This document shows positions 9,663 to 29,700 of a stretch of 64,000 nucleotides of DNA, piece by piece. Each line of letters starts with the position of its first letter. Within the stretch, counting starts at the first letter, position 1. Both the position numbers and the translations under genes were made by a program. The notes beneath the pieces are model-generated. The model did not search any database. It saw only the letters and a program-made list of their open reading frames with translations, and had not been told where the DNA came from. The stretch is taken from NCBI RefSeq assembly GCF_011694815.1, contig NZ_CP050177.1, positions 2,221,001 through 2,285,000 on the forward strand, written 5' to 3'. This DNA comes from Streptomyces liangshanensis. GTDB lineage: Bacteria; Actinomycetota; Actinomycetes; Streptomycetales; Streptomycetaceae.

Positions 9663-11279
9663 TCACTCCGCCGGCTCGGCCCCGGCCCGCAGCAGACCGT
9701 ACGTGTACGCGTCCTCCAGCGCCTGCCAGGACGCCGCGATGACGTTCTCGGCGACGCCGACCGTGGACCACTCGCCCGTGCCGTCCGACGTGGTGACCAG
9801 CACCCGGGTGGTGGAGTCCGTGCCGTGCTTGCCCTCCAGGATGCGGACCTTGTAGTCCACCAGCTGGAACTTGGCGAGCTGCGGGTAGATCCGTTCGAGC
9901 CCCACCCGCATCGCCCGGTCCAGGGCGTTGACCGGGCCGTTCCCCTCCGCGGTGGCGACGATCCGCTCGCCCTTCGCCCAGATCTTCACGGTGGCCTCGT
10001 TGGCGTGGGTGCCGTCGGGGCGGTCCTCGACGATCGCCCGCCAGGACTCCGTACGGAAGTAGACGCGCGGCTTCCCCTCGGCCTCCTCGCGCAGCAGCAG
10101 CTCGAAGGAGGCGTCCGCGGCCTCGTACGTGTACCCCTTGAGTTCGCGCTCCTTGACCCGGCCGACCACCCGCGCGACCAGGTCGCGGTCGCCGCCGAGG
10201 TCGACGCCCAGCTCCTTGCCCTTGAGCTCGATGGAGGCGCGGCCGGCCATGTCGGAGACCAGCATGCGCATGCTGTTGCCGACCAGCTCGGGGGCGATGT
10301 GCTGGTACAGGTCGGGGTCGACCTTGATCGCGGAGGCGTGCAGCCCCGCCTTGTGCGCGAAGGCCGACACCCCGACGTACGGCTGGTGGGTGGAGGGGAC
10401 CAGGTTGACGACCTCGGCGATGGCGTGCGAGATCCGGGTCATCTCGGCCAGCGCGCCCGGGGGCAGTACCCGCTGGTCGTACTTGAGCTCCAGGGCGGCG
10501 ACGACCGGGAAGAGGTTGGCGTTGCCGACCCGCTCGCCGTACCCGTTGGCCGTGCACTGGACGTGCGTGGCGCCCGCGTCGACCGCGGCGAGGGTGTTGG
10601 CGACGGCGCACCCCGTGTCGTCCTGGGCGTGGATGCCGAGCCGGGCGCCGGTGTCGGCGAGGACGGTGGTGACGACGGCCTGGATCTGCGCGGGCAGCAT
10701 GCCGCCGTTCGTGTCGCAGAGGACCACCACGTCGGCGCCGGCCTCGGCGGCGGCCCGTACGACGGACTTGGCGTACTCGGGGTTGGCGCGGTAGCCGTCG
10801 AAGAAGTGCTCGCAGTCGACGAAGACGCGGCGGCCCTGCTCGCGCAGGTACGAGACGGTGTCGCGGATCATCGCGAGGTTCTCGTCCAGGGTGGTGCGCA
10901 GTGCCAGCTCGACATGGCGGTCGTGGGACTTGGCGACCAGGGTGACCACCGGGGCACCGGACTCCACGAGGGCCTTGACCTGCGGGTCCTCCGAGGCCTT
11001 CGCGCCGGGGCGCCGGGTGGAGCCGAAGGCGACGAGCTGGGCGTGCTGGAAGTCGATCTCCTGCTGGGCGCGGGCGAAGAACTCGGTGTCCCGGGGGTTG
11101 GCCCCCGGCCAGCCCCCCTCGATGAAGCCCACGCCGAATTCGTCCAGGTACCGCGCGATGGACAGCTTGTCGGCGACCGTCAGGTTGATGCCCTCACGCT
11201 GCGCGCCGTCGCGCAGCGTCGTGTCGAAGACATGGAAGCCGTCGTCGTTCCCCGAGGGCCCCGTGGACTCTGTGGTCAT
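9663..11279 (-). CDS. cimA: (R)-citramalate synthase
   Basis: CimA condenses pyruvate with acetyl-CoA to citramalate, giving a threonine-independent entry to 2-oxobutyrate and isoleucine. The 538-aa protein has the HMGL/LeuA-type barrel (about 17-290; FDTTLRDGAQREGINLT near the start with the metal-binding Asp) and a C-terminal LeuA-type dimer regulatory domain (about 395-525) expected to bind the feedback inhibitor. Length and the GGWPGANPRDTEFF motif match the CimA subgroup rather than 2-isopropylmalate synthase LeuA. The usual metal-ligand HxH motif reads IHAQDD, so the second His is Gln; GERVGNAN supplies the Asn. I chose ATG at 11277-11279, with AGGAG nine bases upstream, over an earlier in-frame GTG. 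A leader peptide and terminator hairpin upstream suggest attenuation control. Confidence 0.9.
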   Translation of the reverse strand: MTTESTGPSGNDDGFHVFDTTLRDGAQREGINLTVADKLSIARYLDEFGVGFIEGGWPGANPRDTEFFARAQQEIDFQHAQLVAFGSTRRPGAKASEDPQVKALVESGAPVVTLVAKSHDRHVELALRTTLDENLAMIRDTVSYLREQGRRVFVDCEHFFDGYRANPEYAKSVVRAAAEAGADVVVLCDTNGGMLPAQIQAVVTTVLADTGARLGIHAQDDTGCAVANTLAAVDAGATHVQCTANGYGERVGNANLFPVVAALELKYDQRVLPPGALAEMTRISHAIAEVVNLVPSTHQPYVGVSAFAHKAGLHASAIKVDPDLYQHIAPELVGNSMRMLVSDMAGRASIELKGKELGVDLGGDRDLVARVVGRVKERELKGYTYEAADASFELLLREEAEGKPRVYFRTESWRAIVEDRPDGTHANEATVKIWAKGERIVATAEGNGPVNALDRAMRVGLERIYPQLAKFQLVDYKVRILEGKHGTDSTTRVLVTTSDGTGEWSTVGVAENVIAASWQALEDAYTYGLLRAGAEPAE

Positions 11280-11370
11280 GGTGTCCTGCTCCTGTTGAGT
11301 GGATGGTCTGGCTCCACCTGCCCCCGTCACCACGCGCGGCCCGTCTCCGGCCGGGGTAGGGCCGGAAAAC

Positions 11371-11398
11371 GAAAAAACCCCTCGCGGATGCGAGAGGT
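11371..11398 (-). terminator. Attenuator-type rho-independent terminator in the cimA leader
   Basis: On the minus strand an interrupted GC-rich stem (CCTCTCGC pairing with GCGAGGGG around an ATCC loop, one mismatch) is followed at once by six T residues at 11372-11377. U-tract terminators are uncommon in such GC-rich genomes. It lies between a short leader ORF ending at 11451 and the cimA start at 11279, as expected for transcription attenuation. Confidence 0.75.
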
Positions 11399-11450
11399 CT
11401 GCGCGCGGGTCCGAGGCTCGATGTCCGCGCCGTACGGGTCTACGGGGCGG

Positions 11451-11501
11451 TCACTGCGGACCGGCGCACTTGCTGCCAATAATCATGACGAACGAGAGCA
11501 C
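11451..11501 (-). CDS. Putative leader peptide of cimA rich in branched-chain codons
   Basis: A 16-codon frame starting at GTG 11499-11501 encodes (M)LSFVMIIGSKCAGPQ; a shorter ATG start at 11484-11486 gives MIIGSKCAGPQ. Leu2, Val5, Ile7 and Ile8 place four branched-chain residues in the first eight. The two isoleucines use consecutive ATT codons, which are rare in this genome where ATC dominates. No Shine-Dalgarno is visible, but a GAAAAT hexamer ends six bases before the GTG, consistent with a leaderless transcript beginning at the start codon. A U-tract terminator follows 53 bp downstream and cimA begins beyond it. This is the layout of ribosome-mediated attenuation by isoleucine or branched-chain amino acid supply. 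Translation has not been shown, so this is inference from arrangement. Confidence 0.6.
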   Translation of the reverse strand: MLSFVMIIGSKCAGPQ

Positions 11502-11507
11502 GACCCG

Positions 11508-11513
11508 ATTTTC
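11508..11513 (-). promoter_or_regulatory. Candidate -10 element of the cimA leader transcript
   Basis: GAAAAT on the minus strand ends six bases before the leader GTG, so initiation would fall on that codon. The -35 region (TTCCCA at a 16-bp spacing) is poor, so the promoter call is tentative. Confidence 0.4.
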
Positions 11514-11673
11514 GCACGTCCGGTCACTTTGGGAAGCCCCTGTCTCACGATGCGGTCGGTGACCTCCGGGTCACCAGCGTACCGGGGCCCGCACCCCGCG
11601 AACGGGGTACGGGCCCTCGTACGCCGGTCCCGGCCGGTGCCGGGGACGGGGGTACGGACGCCGCGGCGCCGGG

Positions 11674-12765
11674 TCAGGCGACGGTGTGCCGCCAGCCGTG
11701 GGCGTCCGGGACCGCGCCCGACTGGACCTCCAGGAGGGCCTTGCGCACCTTCATGGTGACCTCGCCGGGGCGGCCGTCGGCCACTGTCCAGCCCCCGCGC
11801 GCCGAGTGGACCGTGCCGACCGGGGTGACGACGGCGGCGGTGCCGCACGCGAAGACCTCGGTGAGGGTCCCGTCGGCGTTGCCGGTGCGCCAGTCGTCGA
11901 CGGTCAGGCGGCCCTCGGTGACCTCGTACCCCAGGTCGGCGGCGATGCTCAGGACGGAGTCGCGGGTGATCCCGGCGAGGAGGGTGCCGGTGAGCTCGGG
12001 CGTCATGAGCTTGTCGCCGTACACGAAGAAGAGGTTGTTGGTGCCCATCTCCTCGATCCAGCGCCGCTCGGTCGCGTCCAGCCAGACCACCTGGTCGCAG
12101 CCGTGCTTGGTGGCCTCGGCCTGGGCGATGAGGGACGCGGCGTAGTTGCCGCCGGCCTTCGCCTCGCCCGTGCCGCCGGGGGCGGCGCGCACGTACTCCT
12201 CGGAGAGCCAGACGGAGACCGGCTTCACACCGCCGGCGAAGTACGCCCCTGCCGGGGACGCGATGACCATGAAGAGGAACTCGTTGGCCGGGCGCACGCC
12301 GACGCCGACCTCCGTCGCGAACATGAACGGCCGGATGTAGAGGGATTCCTCACCGACGCCGGGCACCCACGCGCGGTCCTGGGCGATGAGCGCGTCCACC
12401 GCCGCGACGAACGTCTCGACGGGCAGCTCGGGCATCGCCATCCGGCGCGCGGAGCGCTGGAAGCGGCGCGCGTTCTCCTCGGGACGGAAGGTGGCCACCG
12501 AGCCGTCCACCTGCCGGTACGCCTTGAGCCCCTCGAAGATGGTCTGCGCGTAGTGCAGGGTCATGTTCGCCGGGTCGAGCGACAGCGGGGCGTACGGCAC
12601 GAGCTCCGCGTCGTGCCAGCCGCGGCCCTCGGTCCACTTCACCGTCACCATGTTGTCGGTGAAGTAGCGGCCGAAACCGGGGTTGGCGAGGATCCGCTCC
12701 CGCTCGGTGTCGGACAGCGGGTGCGCGGAGGGCTTGAGCTCCAGGGTGGTCGTGGGCGTGGTCAT
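11674..12765 (-). CDS. ilvE: Branched-chain amino acid aminotransferase
   Basis: IlvE is the PLP enzyme that interconverts valine, leucine and isoleucine with their 2-oxo acids using glutamate/2-oxoglutarate. The 363-aa length and fold-type IV motifs fit bacterial class II BCATs: LHYAQTIFEGLKAYR, YIRPFMFATE, the PLP lysine Lys203 in GTGEAKAGGNYAAS, and the signature WIEEMGTNNLFF. ATG at 12763-12765 follows AAGGACGAGAG. The gene has its own 5' region containing a shared 18-bp element (12825-12842) and lies downstream of leuB, separated by a terminator, so it is likely a single transcription unit. It supplies the last step for the pathway built from ilvBN, ilvC, leuB and cimA in this window. 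Confidence 0.95.
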   Translation of the reverse strand: MTTPTTTLELKPSAHPLSDTERERILANPGFGRYFTDNMVTVKWTEGRGWHDAELVPYAPLSLDPANMTLHYAQTIFEGLKAYRQVDGSVATFRPEENARRFQRSARRMAMPELPVETFVAAVDALIAQDRAWVPGVGEESLYIRPFMFATEVGVGVRPANEFLFMVIASPAGAYFAGGVKPVSVWLSEEYVRAAPGGTGEAKAGGNYAASLIAQAEATKHGCDQVVWLDATERRWIEEMGTNNLFFVYGDKLMTPELTGTLLAGITRDSVLSIAADLGYEVTEGRLTVDDWRTGNADGTLTEVFACGTAAVVTPVGTVHSARGGWTVADGRPGEVTMKVRKALLEVQSGAVPDAHGWRHTVA

Positions 12766-26591: not shown

Positions 26592-26626
26592 CAAAAAACC
26601 CCTCGTGCCGGGAGGCAGGCGAGGGG
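26592..26626 (-). terminator. Attenuator terminator in the ilvB leader
   Basis: On the minus strand CCCCTCG (26620-26626) pairs with CGAGGGG (26599-26605) and is followed at once by TTTTTTGTT. It lies between the ilvB leader peptide and ilvB, the classic arrangement for attenuation by branched-chain aminoacyl-tRNA levels. Confidence 0.85.
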
Positions 26627-26668
26627 AGCGCGTCGGGTGCGGTCTGCGGAGCCGGTACGGGCTCTGCT

Positions 26669-26710
26669 TCAGCCGACGCGCTTGCCAAGTACGAGAATTC
26701 GGGTGCGCAT
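26669..26710 (-). CDS. ilvB operon leader peptide
   Basis: The 13-codon frame encodes MRTRILVLGKRVG, the leader peptide conserved upstream of ilvB in actinobacteria. The consecutive control codons Ile-Leu-Val-Leu are spelled ATT CTC GTA CTT, mostly rare codons in this genome. Scarcity of charged branched-chain tRNAs should stall the ribosome here and prevent formation of the terminator at 26592-26626. A purine-rich GGAGGGAGGG lies about 9 bases upstream, but the -10 candidate also places transcription initiation close to the ATG. Confidence 0.92.
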   Translation of the reverse strand: MRTRILVLGKRVG

Positions 26711-26747: not shown

Positions 26748-29700
26748 GTGGGTGGGACGGGCGTCTCATTATTTGAGCGGCTGGCCGGGATGGAGGGGTA
26801 CGGGATCCGGTCACCGCCCGGCGGGCGGGTGTGGCGGACGGGCAGCGAGCCGCCGCTCAGGACGGGGCGCGGGACGCCCTGGGCGCCCGGGAGACCGCCC
26901 GGCAGCGGGTACGTGCCCCGCACCAGGGCCCGGCGCAGCCGGAACTCGTCGAGCGGCCCGGAGAAGGCCATCCCCAGGCCGTGGGTACAGCCCATGGCGC
27001 GCAGGGCCACCACCTGCTCGGGAAGGTCGACGCCCTCCGCGACCGACTCCAGGCCGAGGTCGCCGGCGATCTTGAGCAGCCCGGTGGTGATCTTGTGCAG
27101 CCGGGCGGACTCGACGACTCCGTCGACCAGCCCGCGGTCCAGTTTCAGGATGTCCACGGGGAGCCGGCGCAGGGCGTTGATGGCCGCGTACCCGCTGCCG
27201 AAGCCGTCGAGCGCGATCCGTACCCCGAGCCGGCGCAGGGACAGGAGGCGGTGCTCCAGCTCGTCCAGGGAGCTGCGCGGGTCGCTGTCGGCCAGCTCGA
27301 TCACCAGGGCCCCCGAGGGCAGGCCGTGGCGGGCGAGGAGCGTCTCCACGGAGCCGAGGGGCAGGGACCGGTCGAGCAGCCTGCGGGCCGGGAGCCGGAC
27401 GACGACCGGGGCGGGGTGGCCGAGCGCGGTGCGCTCGGCGGCCTGGGTGACGGCCTCTTCGAGGAGCCAGCGGCTCAGCTCGGCGGTGCGGTCGCCGTCG
27501 TCGGCGACGCGCAGGATCTCGGCGGGCGTGGAGAGGATGCCCTGCGCGGTGCGCCAGCGCGCCTGGGCGGCGACGGAACAGATCCGGCCGGTGGCCAGGT
27601 GGACGACGGGCTGGTGCAGGAGGGCGAACTCGCCGTCGTGCAGGGCGGTGCGCAGCCGGGCCGCCAGCTCCGTCCTGCGGACGACGTCGGCCTGCATCTG
27701 CGGCGCGTACAGCTCGACGCGGTCCTTGCCGCCGGCCTTGGCCCGGTACATGGCGAGGTCGGCGTTGCGCATCAGGTCGGTGGGGGTGATGCCGGGCTCG
27801 GCGAAGGCGACGCCGATGGAGGCGGCGACCCGGACATCGTTGCCTTCGATGCGGTACGGCTGGGAGAGCTGGAGGCGCAGGCGGTCGGCGATCTCGTGGA
27901 CCAGGTACTCCCGGGCGGTCTGGTCGTCGCCGCCGTCGCCGAGGACGATCGCCGCGAACTCGTCGCCGCCGAGGCGGGCCACGGTGTCCTCGGCGCGGAC
28001 GGAGTCCTGGAGGCGGCGGGCGGCCCGGACCAGCAGCTCGTCGCCGACCTGGTGGCCCAGCCGGTCGTTGACGCTCTTGAAGCCGTCGAGGTCGATGAAG
28101 AGGACAGCCGTGCCGGGGTCGGTCGCGCGGCGGCCGGACAGGGCGAGCCGGACGCGCTCGGTGAACAGGGCGCGGTTGGGCAGGTCGGTGAGCGGGTCGT
28201 GCTCGGCGTTGTGCTGCAACTGCGCCTGGAGGCGGACCCGCTCGGTGACGTCCCGGCTGTTGAAGATCAGGCCGCCCTCGTGGCGGTTGACGGTGGACTC
28301 CACGTTGAGCCAGTCGCCGGTGCCGGACTTGAAGCGGCACTCGATCCGGGTGGTGGGCTCCTCGGCGGGGGGCGCGGCCAGAAATCGCCGTACCTCGTGG
28401 TGCACCCGGCCCAGGTCGTCCGGGTGGATGATCGTGGCCAGTTCGGCGCCGACGAGGGCCTCGGCGTCGCGTCCGTAGACGCCGGTCGCGGCGGGGCTGA
28501 CGTAGCGCAGGGTGCCGGAGGGCGCGGCGATCATGATGACGTCGCTGGAGCCCTGGACCAGGGAGCGGAAGTGGTTCTCCTTCTGGGCCAGTTCATGGGT
28601 GAGCGCGATGTTCTCGACCAGCATGATGCCCTGCCGGACGACCAGGGCGAGCACGACCGTGGAGCCGGTGAGGACCACCACCCGGTCCACCCGGCGGCCC
28701 TCGATGACGTTGTAGAGGATCCCGAGCGTGCAGACGGCGGCGGCGAGGTAGGGCGTGAGCGCGGCGAGGGAGCTCGCGATGGGGCGGCCGGAAGGGCGGA
28801 CGGCGGGGCCCTGGAGGAGGACGGGGGGCGGCGGGTCCGGGGCCGCGTCCGCGACGCGGCGCACGCCCCAGGGCGCGTACGCGAGGAGGAGGGAGCCGGC
28901 GAACCAGCCGGCGTCCAGGAGCTGTCCCGAGCGGTACGTGGCCCTCAGCAGCGGCGAGGTGAACAGGGCGTCGCACACCACGGTCAGCGCGAGGGCCGCG
29001 ATGGCGGTGTTCACCGCGGAGCGGCTGCCCGTGGAGCGCCGGAAGTGCAGGGCGAGCACCATGCTGACGAGCACGATGTCGAGCAGCGGGTAGGCGAGGG
29101 ACAGGGCGGCCTGGGCGACGCTCTCGCCGCGGAAGTGCGCGTTGTGGGCGAGGGCGAGGCTCCAGGAGAGGGTCAGCAGCGAGCCGCCGATGAGCCAGGA
29201 GTCGAGGGCCAGGCAGACCCAGCCGGCCTTCGTGACAGGGCGCTTGGCGAGGACGAGCAGCCCCACGATGGCGGGCGGCGCGAAGCAGAGGAAGAAGAGG
29301 TCGGCGAGGGACAGGCCGGGTACGGGCCGGTCGAGGACCACCTCGTACCAGCCCCAGACGGCGTTGCCGCAGGAGGCCATGGCGGAGGACAGCGAGAAGA
29401 GCAGCCAGGCGGGGCGGAAGCGCCGGTCGCGGCCGCGGGCGTAGAGGAAGCAGGAGACGGCCGCGATCCCGGCGGCGAGGCTCAGCCCGAAGTCGCCCAT
29501 TATCAGGGCCAGTTCCGGCGATCCCCAGCCGAGGGCGGCGCCCGCCGCGTACCCCCCGCAGATCAGGGCGAGGAGGAGTTGGGAGAGGAGCCCCGTACCG
29601 ACTCCGCCCGGGGTGGGCCGGTGGGCGGGGAGCACGCCCTCGGCGCTCACCGGAGCGTCCCCGGGAGCGTCGCTGTCACCGCCGCGGGGCCCGGTCCGTG

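Follow-up and report, generated by a model that had tools for sequence, protein, structure and literature searches.

In the trp, leu, thr, his and ilv attenuators of E. coli, codons for the end product lie in a short leader that is followed by an intrinsic terminator before the gene, and under a ribosome stall the 5′ arm of the terminator is paired upstream. The element characterised here, which precedes the citramalate synthase gene cimA in Streptomyces, likewise joins end-product codons in a short leader to an intrinsic terminator but does not pair the 5′ arm upstream. The pyrBI leader of E. coli offers a second comparison: it is not known to use amino acid codons or a docking hairpin, and UTP is sensed via a U-rich pause stretch. 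Where pyrBI has that stretch, the cimA leader carries isoleucine codons. In pyrBI the ribosome directly suppresses the terminator, as we propose for cimA (PMC4824070; this and the other papers are cited from the parts of their text that were available). The same source states that ribosomal protection reaches about 10 nt past the A site, that terminators are repressed by ribosomes near them, that closing of the last 2–3 hairpin pairs is reportedly essential for termination, and that in amino acid attenuators more than 20 bp separate the leader gene from the terminator. According to a review, modelling makes the collided ribosome–polymerase complex sterically incompatible with termination hairpins (PMC7858274).

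Leaderless attenuator peptides have been described in Streptomyces for ilvB, leuA, leuS, trp and others, and those named ilvL, leuL1/2 and trpL1/2 have, like the cimA leader, a start codon at the promoter and end-product codons (PMC8079986). In the available part of that source eight leaderless leader peptides are listed for S. lividans, cimA not among them, and the available text of a comparative study from 2005 does not name cimA either (PMC1262725). The leaders of Mycobacterium ilvB1 and Corynebacterium ilvB-II also combine a branched-chain amino acid (BCAA) uORF with a terminator in actinomycetes; they serve a gene other than cimA, and an antiterminator has been proposed for them (PMC13236596, PMC10272879). 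Attenuation of ilvB1 in M. tuberculosis has recent experimental support (PMC13236596). The ilvBNC leader of C. glutamicum resembles the cimA element in its adjoining hairpins and BCAA codons; its hairpins are modelled to share a traded GCC (PMC11857589), whereas the corresponding helix of cimA (A:A′, below) stops exactly at the terminator. One published result counts against the model proposed below, since altering codons of the ilvB leader in S. coelicolor left regulation unaffected (PMC1262725). A cimA attenuator, or control of cimA in actinomycetes, was not found in open-licence PMC or Rfam; a list of premature terminators from a Term-seq study of S. clavuligerus may hold cimA (PMC8269248). 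An earlier note on this DNA had regarded the leaderless leader peptide as undescribed. Since leaderless BCAA leaders are already known for ilvB, leuA and leuS (PMC8079986), only the cimA case appears unreported. In kind the element appears to be a leader-peptide attenuator; what appears to be new is its target, its class-wide spread, the swapping of its codons and the missing classical antiterminator.

The window, by which we mean the whole stretch of 64,000 nt from Streptomyces liangshanensis that was analysed, holds the element on its minus strand between ilvE (end at 11674) and cimA (ATG at 11279) (Table 1). The earlier note, made from the letters alone, had described a 16-codon GTG frame with Leu2, Val5, Ile7 and Ile8 ahead of a citramalate synthase gene, and both were found as described: the frame VLSFVMIIGSKCAGPQ, 16 codons followed by TGA with both isoleucines encoded by ATT, is present exactly at 11501–11451, and the product of the gene matches the NCBIfam equivalog TIGR00977 with 648.5 bits (cut-off 450). 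Citramalate synthase opens a threonine-independent route to isoleucine. The hexamer GAAAAT, reported six bases ahead of the GTG, was seen at 11513–11508, with a spacer at 11507–11502 separating it from the GTG at 11501–11499, 222 nt upstream of cimA. The stem-loop claimed after the leader stop is a real terminator (stem at 11400–11375, T-run as far as 11372), the sole site returned by a terminator scan of 11200–11760, where shuffles average 0.2; its full stem begins 50 nt past the leader stop, the 53 given earlier being the distance to the CCTC core. From the terminator to the cimA start there are 92 nt. Rfam gave no match to the element at gathering score, and two irrelevant weak matches (E ≤1) fall outside it. 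The stretch between terminator and cimA (11280–11371, minus strand) is itself partly conserved in Streptomyces (CGTTTTCCGGCCC, later GGTGGAGCC), and a second promoter is possible there. Outside Streptomyces the distance from the element to the CimA match is 11–221 nt with a median of 52 (83 loci), which leaves little room for another start.

Table 1 Features of the cimA leader element and of the ilvB leader in the window
Feature	Position	Strand	Basis
cimA, citramalate synthase, gene under the proposed control	9663..11279	-	TIGR00977 above cut-off
CCGCATCGTGAGAC block ahead of the promoter, probably a regulator site	11542..11555	-	position of TGAGA[CT] conserved
GAAAAT, resembling a -10 element, 6 nt ahead of the leader start	11508..11513	-	xAxxxT in 79/81 loci
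Leader peptide frame VLSFVMIIGSKCAGPQ, GTG start, TGA stop	11451..11501	-	frame present in 81/81 Streptomyces loci
Putative control codons Ile7-Ile8, ATT ATT	11478..11483	-	codon 7 ATT in 81/81; codon 8 Ile in 74/81
Segment A, 5′ arm of the long-range hairpin A:A′	11459..11469	-	folding; covariation in 50 class-wide sequences
P2, variable hairpin within the A:A′ loop	11421..11454	-	compensatory changes in Streptomyces; many class members have a short P2 or none
Segment A′, 3′ arm of A:A′, directly abutting the terminator	11401..11411	-	gap 0 nt in 81/81 Streptomyces and 36/39 distant elements (A-U base pairs counted)
Intrinsic terminator hairpin and T-run	11372..11400	-	terminator scan; compensatory changes
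Window ilvB leader (MRTRILVLGKRVG, then stop), A GCGCGTCGG, A′ CCGACGCGC, terminator	26595..26710	-	ranked second among R1 matches of the window, E 0.014

For comparison among close relatives we used 81 loci, namely the best 80 cimA loci of a genome contig scan (79 titled Streptomyces or [Kitasatospora], one titled Actinobacteria bacterium) together with the window locus. Conservation of the leader is far beyond chance, all 81 loci holding the frame with GTG as start codon in 80 and ATG in one. Codon 7 is ATT in every locus and codon 8 is ATT in 53, ATC in 21, ATG in six and ACC in one, with Ile present in all 81 leaders and Ile-Ile in 74. The description of these ATT codons as rare was borne out, ATT accounting for 0 of 212 Ile codons in 11 ORFs of the window and for 6 of the 1478 in cimA itself across the 80 loci. 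Leu2 and Val5 were also considered as control codons and rejected, since neither is kept in relatives; of the isoleucine or branched-chain sensing that had been suggested, it is the isoleucine part that is retained. One Streptomyces clade has lost a base after codon 10, which shifts its frame (GSSAPVRS) and leaves the DNA GCGCGCCGGTCCGCAGTG unchanged. The coding constraint therefore stops near the Ile codons, and the rest is kept as RNA.

A hexamer of the form xAxxxT ends 6 nt before the leader start in 79 of the 81 loci, 7 nt in one and 5 nt in one, and in those 79 the spacing of this −10-like sequence would fit a leaderless transcript. Further upstream, TGAGA[CT] ends 39–41 nt before the leader start in 80 loci and 30 nt before it in the remaining one. 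A conserved [CT]CGCATC[CG]TGAGAC block lies at a fixed distance before the cimA leader promoter, and a similar stretch, AATAATGAGAC, is found before the ilvB leader near 26760; perhaps one regulator might serve both blocks. NdgR was considered as the upstream factor and set aside, as cimA is not named in the available text of the NdgR regulon paper (PMC4340878); a consensus has been published (PMC8222616). Taken together, the conserved Ile-codon leader and terminator before cimA almost certainly act as an attenuator, and the codons and the gene make it very probable that the element answers isoleucine supply.

The spread of the element was followed with two covariance models, R1 (first) and R2 (second), both of which include AUUAU positions, so that matches lean towards Ile codons. 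R1 matched 197 of 199 Streptomyces genomes, 149 of 150 genomes of the family (17 of 17 genera) and 113 of 296 genomes of the class. The only two genomes of the genus that gave no match (G081 and G178) are highly fragmented, with about 700 and 620 contigs, and an assembly gap is thus possible. R2 matched 154 of the 296 class genomes, 28 of them Streptomyces, and 236 of the same 296 have a CimA match at E ≤1e-60. Outside Streptomyces, a place is listed for R2 in 101 of the 126 matching genomes and for CimA in 122; of the 84 genomes with both places listed, 83 carry the element just ahead of the CimA match, on the same strand. For 38 of the listed CimA genomes no R2 place is listed, three of which (G509, G532 and G554) do match R2 weakly, and an R2 match is absent in 35 of the 122. 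Twenty of these 38 upstream regions were read: the element was seen in four (G394 and G338, missed by R2 and both with Ile-Ile, and the weak matches G532 and G554) and was absent in 16. In some of the regions that lack it, cimA follows straight after another gene, or a different conserved block is present. Seven loci of one family (L189, L194, L196, L197, L200, L201 and L203) have a cimA upstream region free of the terminator element, and several of them share a different conserved block, rich in GC (GGCGGCGAACCCGTCTCCG...GGGCGCGTGGCGG), which might represent a leader of another type. At phylum level 21 of 198 genomes matched, and 11 of the 21 lie outside the class. L002 and L003, two weak genome matches, were rejected as copies, their alignments covering the ilvE end of the query and not the element.

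Among 39 distant elements the downstream gene encodes CimA in 35, IlvB in one and another protein in two; one sequence ends too early. Distant leaders are short and place Ile close to the stop codon or to segment A (for example VALPLIIA, MSFWMIII and VHRTAIIIN, each followed by a stop). Across the class either ATT or ATC serves for Ile and the start and stop shift, and a frame with Ile before A persists, so that the conservation of frame and Ile codons asked about in the earlier note extends through the genus and, amid changed surroundings, through much of the class. In the leader Ile runs of 28 class loci ATT makes up 33 of 58 codons, compared with 11 of 315 in CimA frames, a contrast to be read with the bias of the models to AUUAU. 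A like architecture was found before IlvB (MTSRRDRVVP in L129, MHLTRDLVIP in L178, each with its stop) and before 2-isopropylmalate synthase (MTNLLLT in L177, MSQNLLLT in L164; NF002086 above cut-off). Inspection of nine of the eleven genomes outside the class gave ten loci, seven of which (L166–L171 and L173) carry leaders with V/L/I codons before IlvB; L165 and L172 have none of the query genes nearby and may be false matches. In one genus, Ile-rich leaders at L153 (1401–1488, minus strand) and L163 (1401–1494, minus strand) precede a small protein, which at L153 gave no Pfam or NCBIfam match and is ACT-like by eye only. The earlier note had also named ilvB of the window as bearing a similar leader. 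This is the second-best R1 match given in Table 1; the gene behind it encodes the acetolactate synthase large subunit, and it shares the cimA layout in having A′ directly before the terminator. The putative control codons thus track the gene: Ile for cimA, Leu for leuA and Val/Leu/Ile for ilvB.

Folding gave a helix A:A′ formed by GCGCGC.GGUC and GACC.GCGCGC, which encloses the variable hairpin P2 and is followed by the terminator. P2 and the terminator show compensatory changes in Streptomyces. A:A′ is invariant across 73 distinct Streptomyces sequences save for one G–U, and hence yields no covariation signal from that set. In the Streptomyces pair-count test, in which the register of the inner helix was partly wrong, one measure out of five clearly exceeded shuffles (cells with changes on both sides, equalled by 0 of 500), and the covariation score nearly did so (14 of 500 as high). 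In an alignment of 50 class-wide sequences A:A′ and the terminator covary: 24 pairs changed on both sides against a shuffled mean of 11.2, and 139 cells against 30.8, with 0 of 500 shuffles as high in either case. That alignment was fitted to the model, which favours covariation, and slid versions of it drop to 8–24 cells. A classical first stem between the leader 5′ end and the Ile-Gly region was seen in the fitted alignment and in single folds and was rejected as too weak.

Besides the flush junction of A′ and terminator (Table 1), the distance from the end of the first Ile codon to A is 10–11 nt in 74 Streptomyces elements and 7–12 nt in 34 distant ones, the 7 of 81 and 5 of 39 elements that have no run of ATT/ATC-ATT/ATC being omitted. 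The position of the leader stop relative to A ranges from −4 to +35 nt. A new set of 60 class elements, whose spacings were previously unexamined, was then measured by script, which processed 50: the gap between A′ and terminator was 0 in 41, 1 in eight and 3 in one, Ile to A was 7–11 nt in 49, and the stop lay at least 18 nt from the terminator in all 50. Nine of the ten unprocessed elements have Ile by eye (seven as one codon, two as two separate codons), and in the tenth Ile-Ile is present and the terminator was missed by the script.

The flush junction invites a classical reading, in which A:A′ is an antiterminator competing with the terminator for base pairs at the boundary. The abutting terminator and antiterminator hairpins of C. 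glutamicum ilvBNC, which trade a GCC (PMC11857589), and the terminator/antiterminator pair of M. tuberculosis ilvB1 (PMC13236596) are precedents for it, and A′ and the terminator abut in the cimA element as it would expect. Against it, A:A′ ends at the terminator without running into it in all 81 Streptomyces elements and in 33 of 37 distant ones (L147 and L148, where the hairpin finder failed, are missing from the 39, and L167 and L174 from a side list), and in 120 of 120 elements the minimum-energy fold contains A:A′ together with the terminator hairpin. We also carried out a masked partition-function test, in which the RNA was masked to the front edge of a ribosome on the first Ile codon and cut before the 3′ arm of the terminator. 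It covers 34 distant and 80 Streptomyces elements (5 of 39 and 1 of 81 left out) and, like the other fold tests, disregards pseudoknots and folding kinetics. With the ribosome thus stalled, none of the 34 distant and none of the 80 Streptomyces elements had the terminator 5′ arm paired upstream at P > 0.5 (medians ≤0.07); the arm was free in 114 of 114, which again argues against a classical antiterminator. A′ was paired in 114 of 114 at masks of 7–9 nt and in 113 at 10 nt. The E. coli controls, in which up to five codons were scanned from the first control codon onwards, had 5′ arm pairing peaks of 0.99 for thrL, 0.83 for trpL, 0.85 for leuL, 0.71 for hisL and 0.81 for ilvL, the last reaching 0.76 even without a ribosome. 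In the new set one of 50 elements exceeded P 0.5; this was L236, misassigned by the script and kept in the counts as a failing case.

With the ribosome placed at the stop and the terminator 3′ arm not yet present, the 5′ arm was more paired than under the stall (median P 0.27 in distant and 0.56 in Streptomyces elements), and A′ remained paired with other segments in 66 of the 80 Streptomyces and 6 of the 34 distant elements. A search for an upstream antiterminator by duplex test against shuffles gave p ≤0.05 for T5 in 3 of 39 distant and 0 of 81 Streptomyces elements and for T3 in 3 of 39 and 7 of 81. That test was weak (its A′ control succeeded in 31 of 39 but 3 of 81, trpL gave p 0.25, the hisL and ilvL hairpins were misassigned, and thrL and leuL were not found), and it was therefore superseded by the masked test. 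The folds indicate that ribosome position decides whether A:A′ forms and that the pairing of A:A′ does not prevent the terminator from folding. The ribosome-mediated attenuation put forward in the earlier note accordingly keeps its leaderless-type, Ile-coded leader and its intrinsic terminator and loses the classical antiterminator, which was sought by these tests and not found. A classical attenuator, whether with A:A′ as competitor at the boundary or with an antiterminator missed by folding, would sense isoleucine in the same way; we consider it unlikely, and the most serious of the alternatives.

Based on these spacings and folds, we propose that the isoleucine attenuator works by a hairpin-docked ribosome block with no antiterminator, a reading that we prefer and to which we give a probability of roughly one half. 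We infer that transcription starts at or beside the GTG, and the ribosome would initiate on the leaderless frame. When Ile-tRNA is ample, the ribosome would pass the Ile codons and cover segment A, so that A:A′ is opened; with the leader stop at least 18 nt from the terminator, the latter would fold and transcription would end. When isoleucine is short, the first Ile codon would hold up the ribosome, whose front edge would lie at the foot of A. In this state A:A′ would form, loop out the intervening RNA and dock the ribosome at the foot of the flush terminator, where it would sterically prevent the terminator from closing its last pairs inside the polymerase and so allow readthrough into cimA. 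The path from the P site to the polymerase active site, calculated with a folded terminator for 108 elements and an assumed U-tract of 7 nt, is 20–25 nt for a stall on the first Ile codon with A:A′ zipped and 33–92 nt for a ribosome at the stop with A covered. By this calculation a stalled ribosome would sit on the terminator foot and a ribosome at the stop would not, and the spacing geometry would be compatible with a block of the pyrBI type, in which the ribosome comes near enough to the terminator to prevent it. The replete state counts against docking in that it is not clean, the 5′ arm being more paired and A′ mostly paired in Streptomyces.

Alternatively, A:A′ could be a pause hairpin that holds RNA polymerase for the ribosome, the switch lying elsewhere, for example in Rho or in cimA translation. 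The terminator 5′ arm is 11 nt long, which places the end of A′ about 11 nt before the end of that arm, and about 11 nt is the spacing of known pause hairpins; yet a pause hairpin gives no reason for starvation to raise readthrough, and its stem need not finish flush with the terminator, and we regard this reading as improbable. Least credible by far is an RNA sensor or protein site with an incidental reading frame, for although the letters ATGATTATTGGCAGC are strongly conserved in Streptomyces, the frame with Ile before A stays across the class as Ile codons, start and stop vary, codon identity tracks the gene and no Rfam family fits.

Extending the docked-ribosome block beyond cimA, we tentatively suggest that Actinomycetota share an attenuator of BCAA genes that works without an antiterminator, in which a leader-stalled ribosome would be docked by a flush hairpin and the codon cassette would be swapped as the geometry of hairpin and terminator is kept. 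If true, such a class-wide, codon-swappable attenuator would provide one rule for BCAA control among antibiotic producers. If docking holds, a terminator would be switched without a competing fold, and this might help to explain why no simple result came from mutants of the S. coelicolor ilvB leader.
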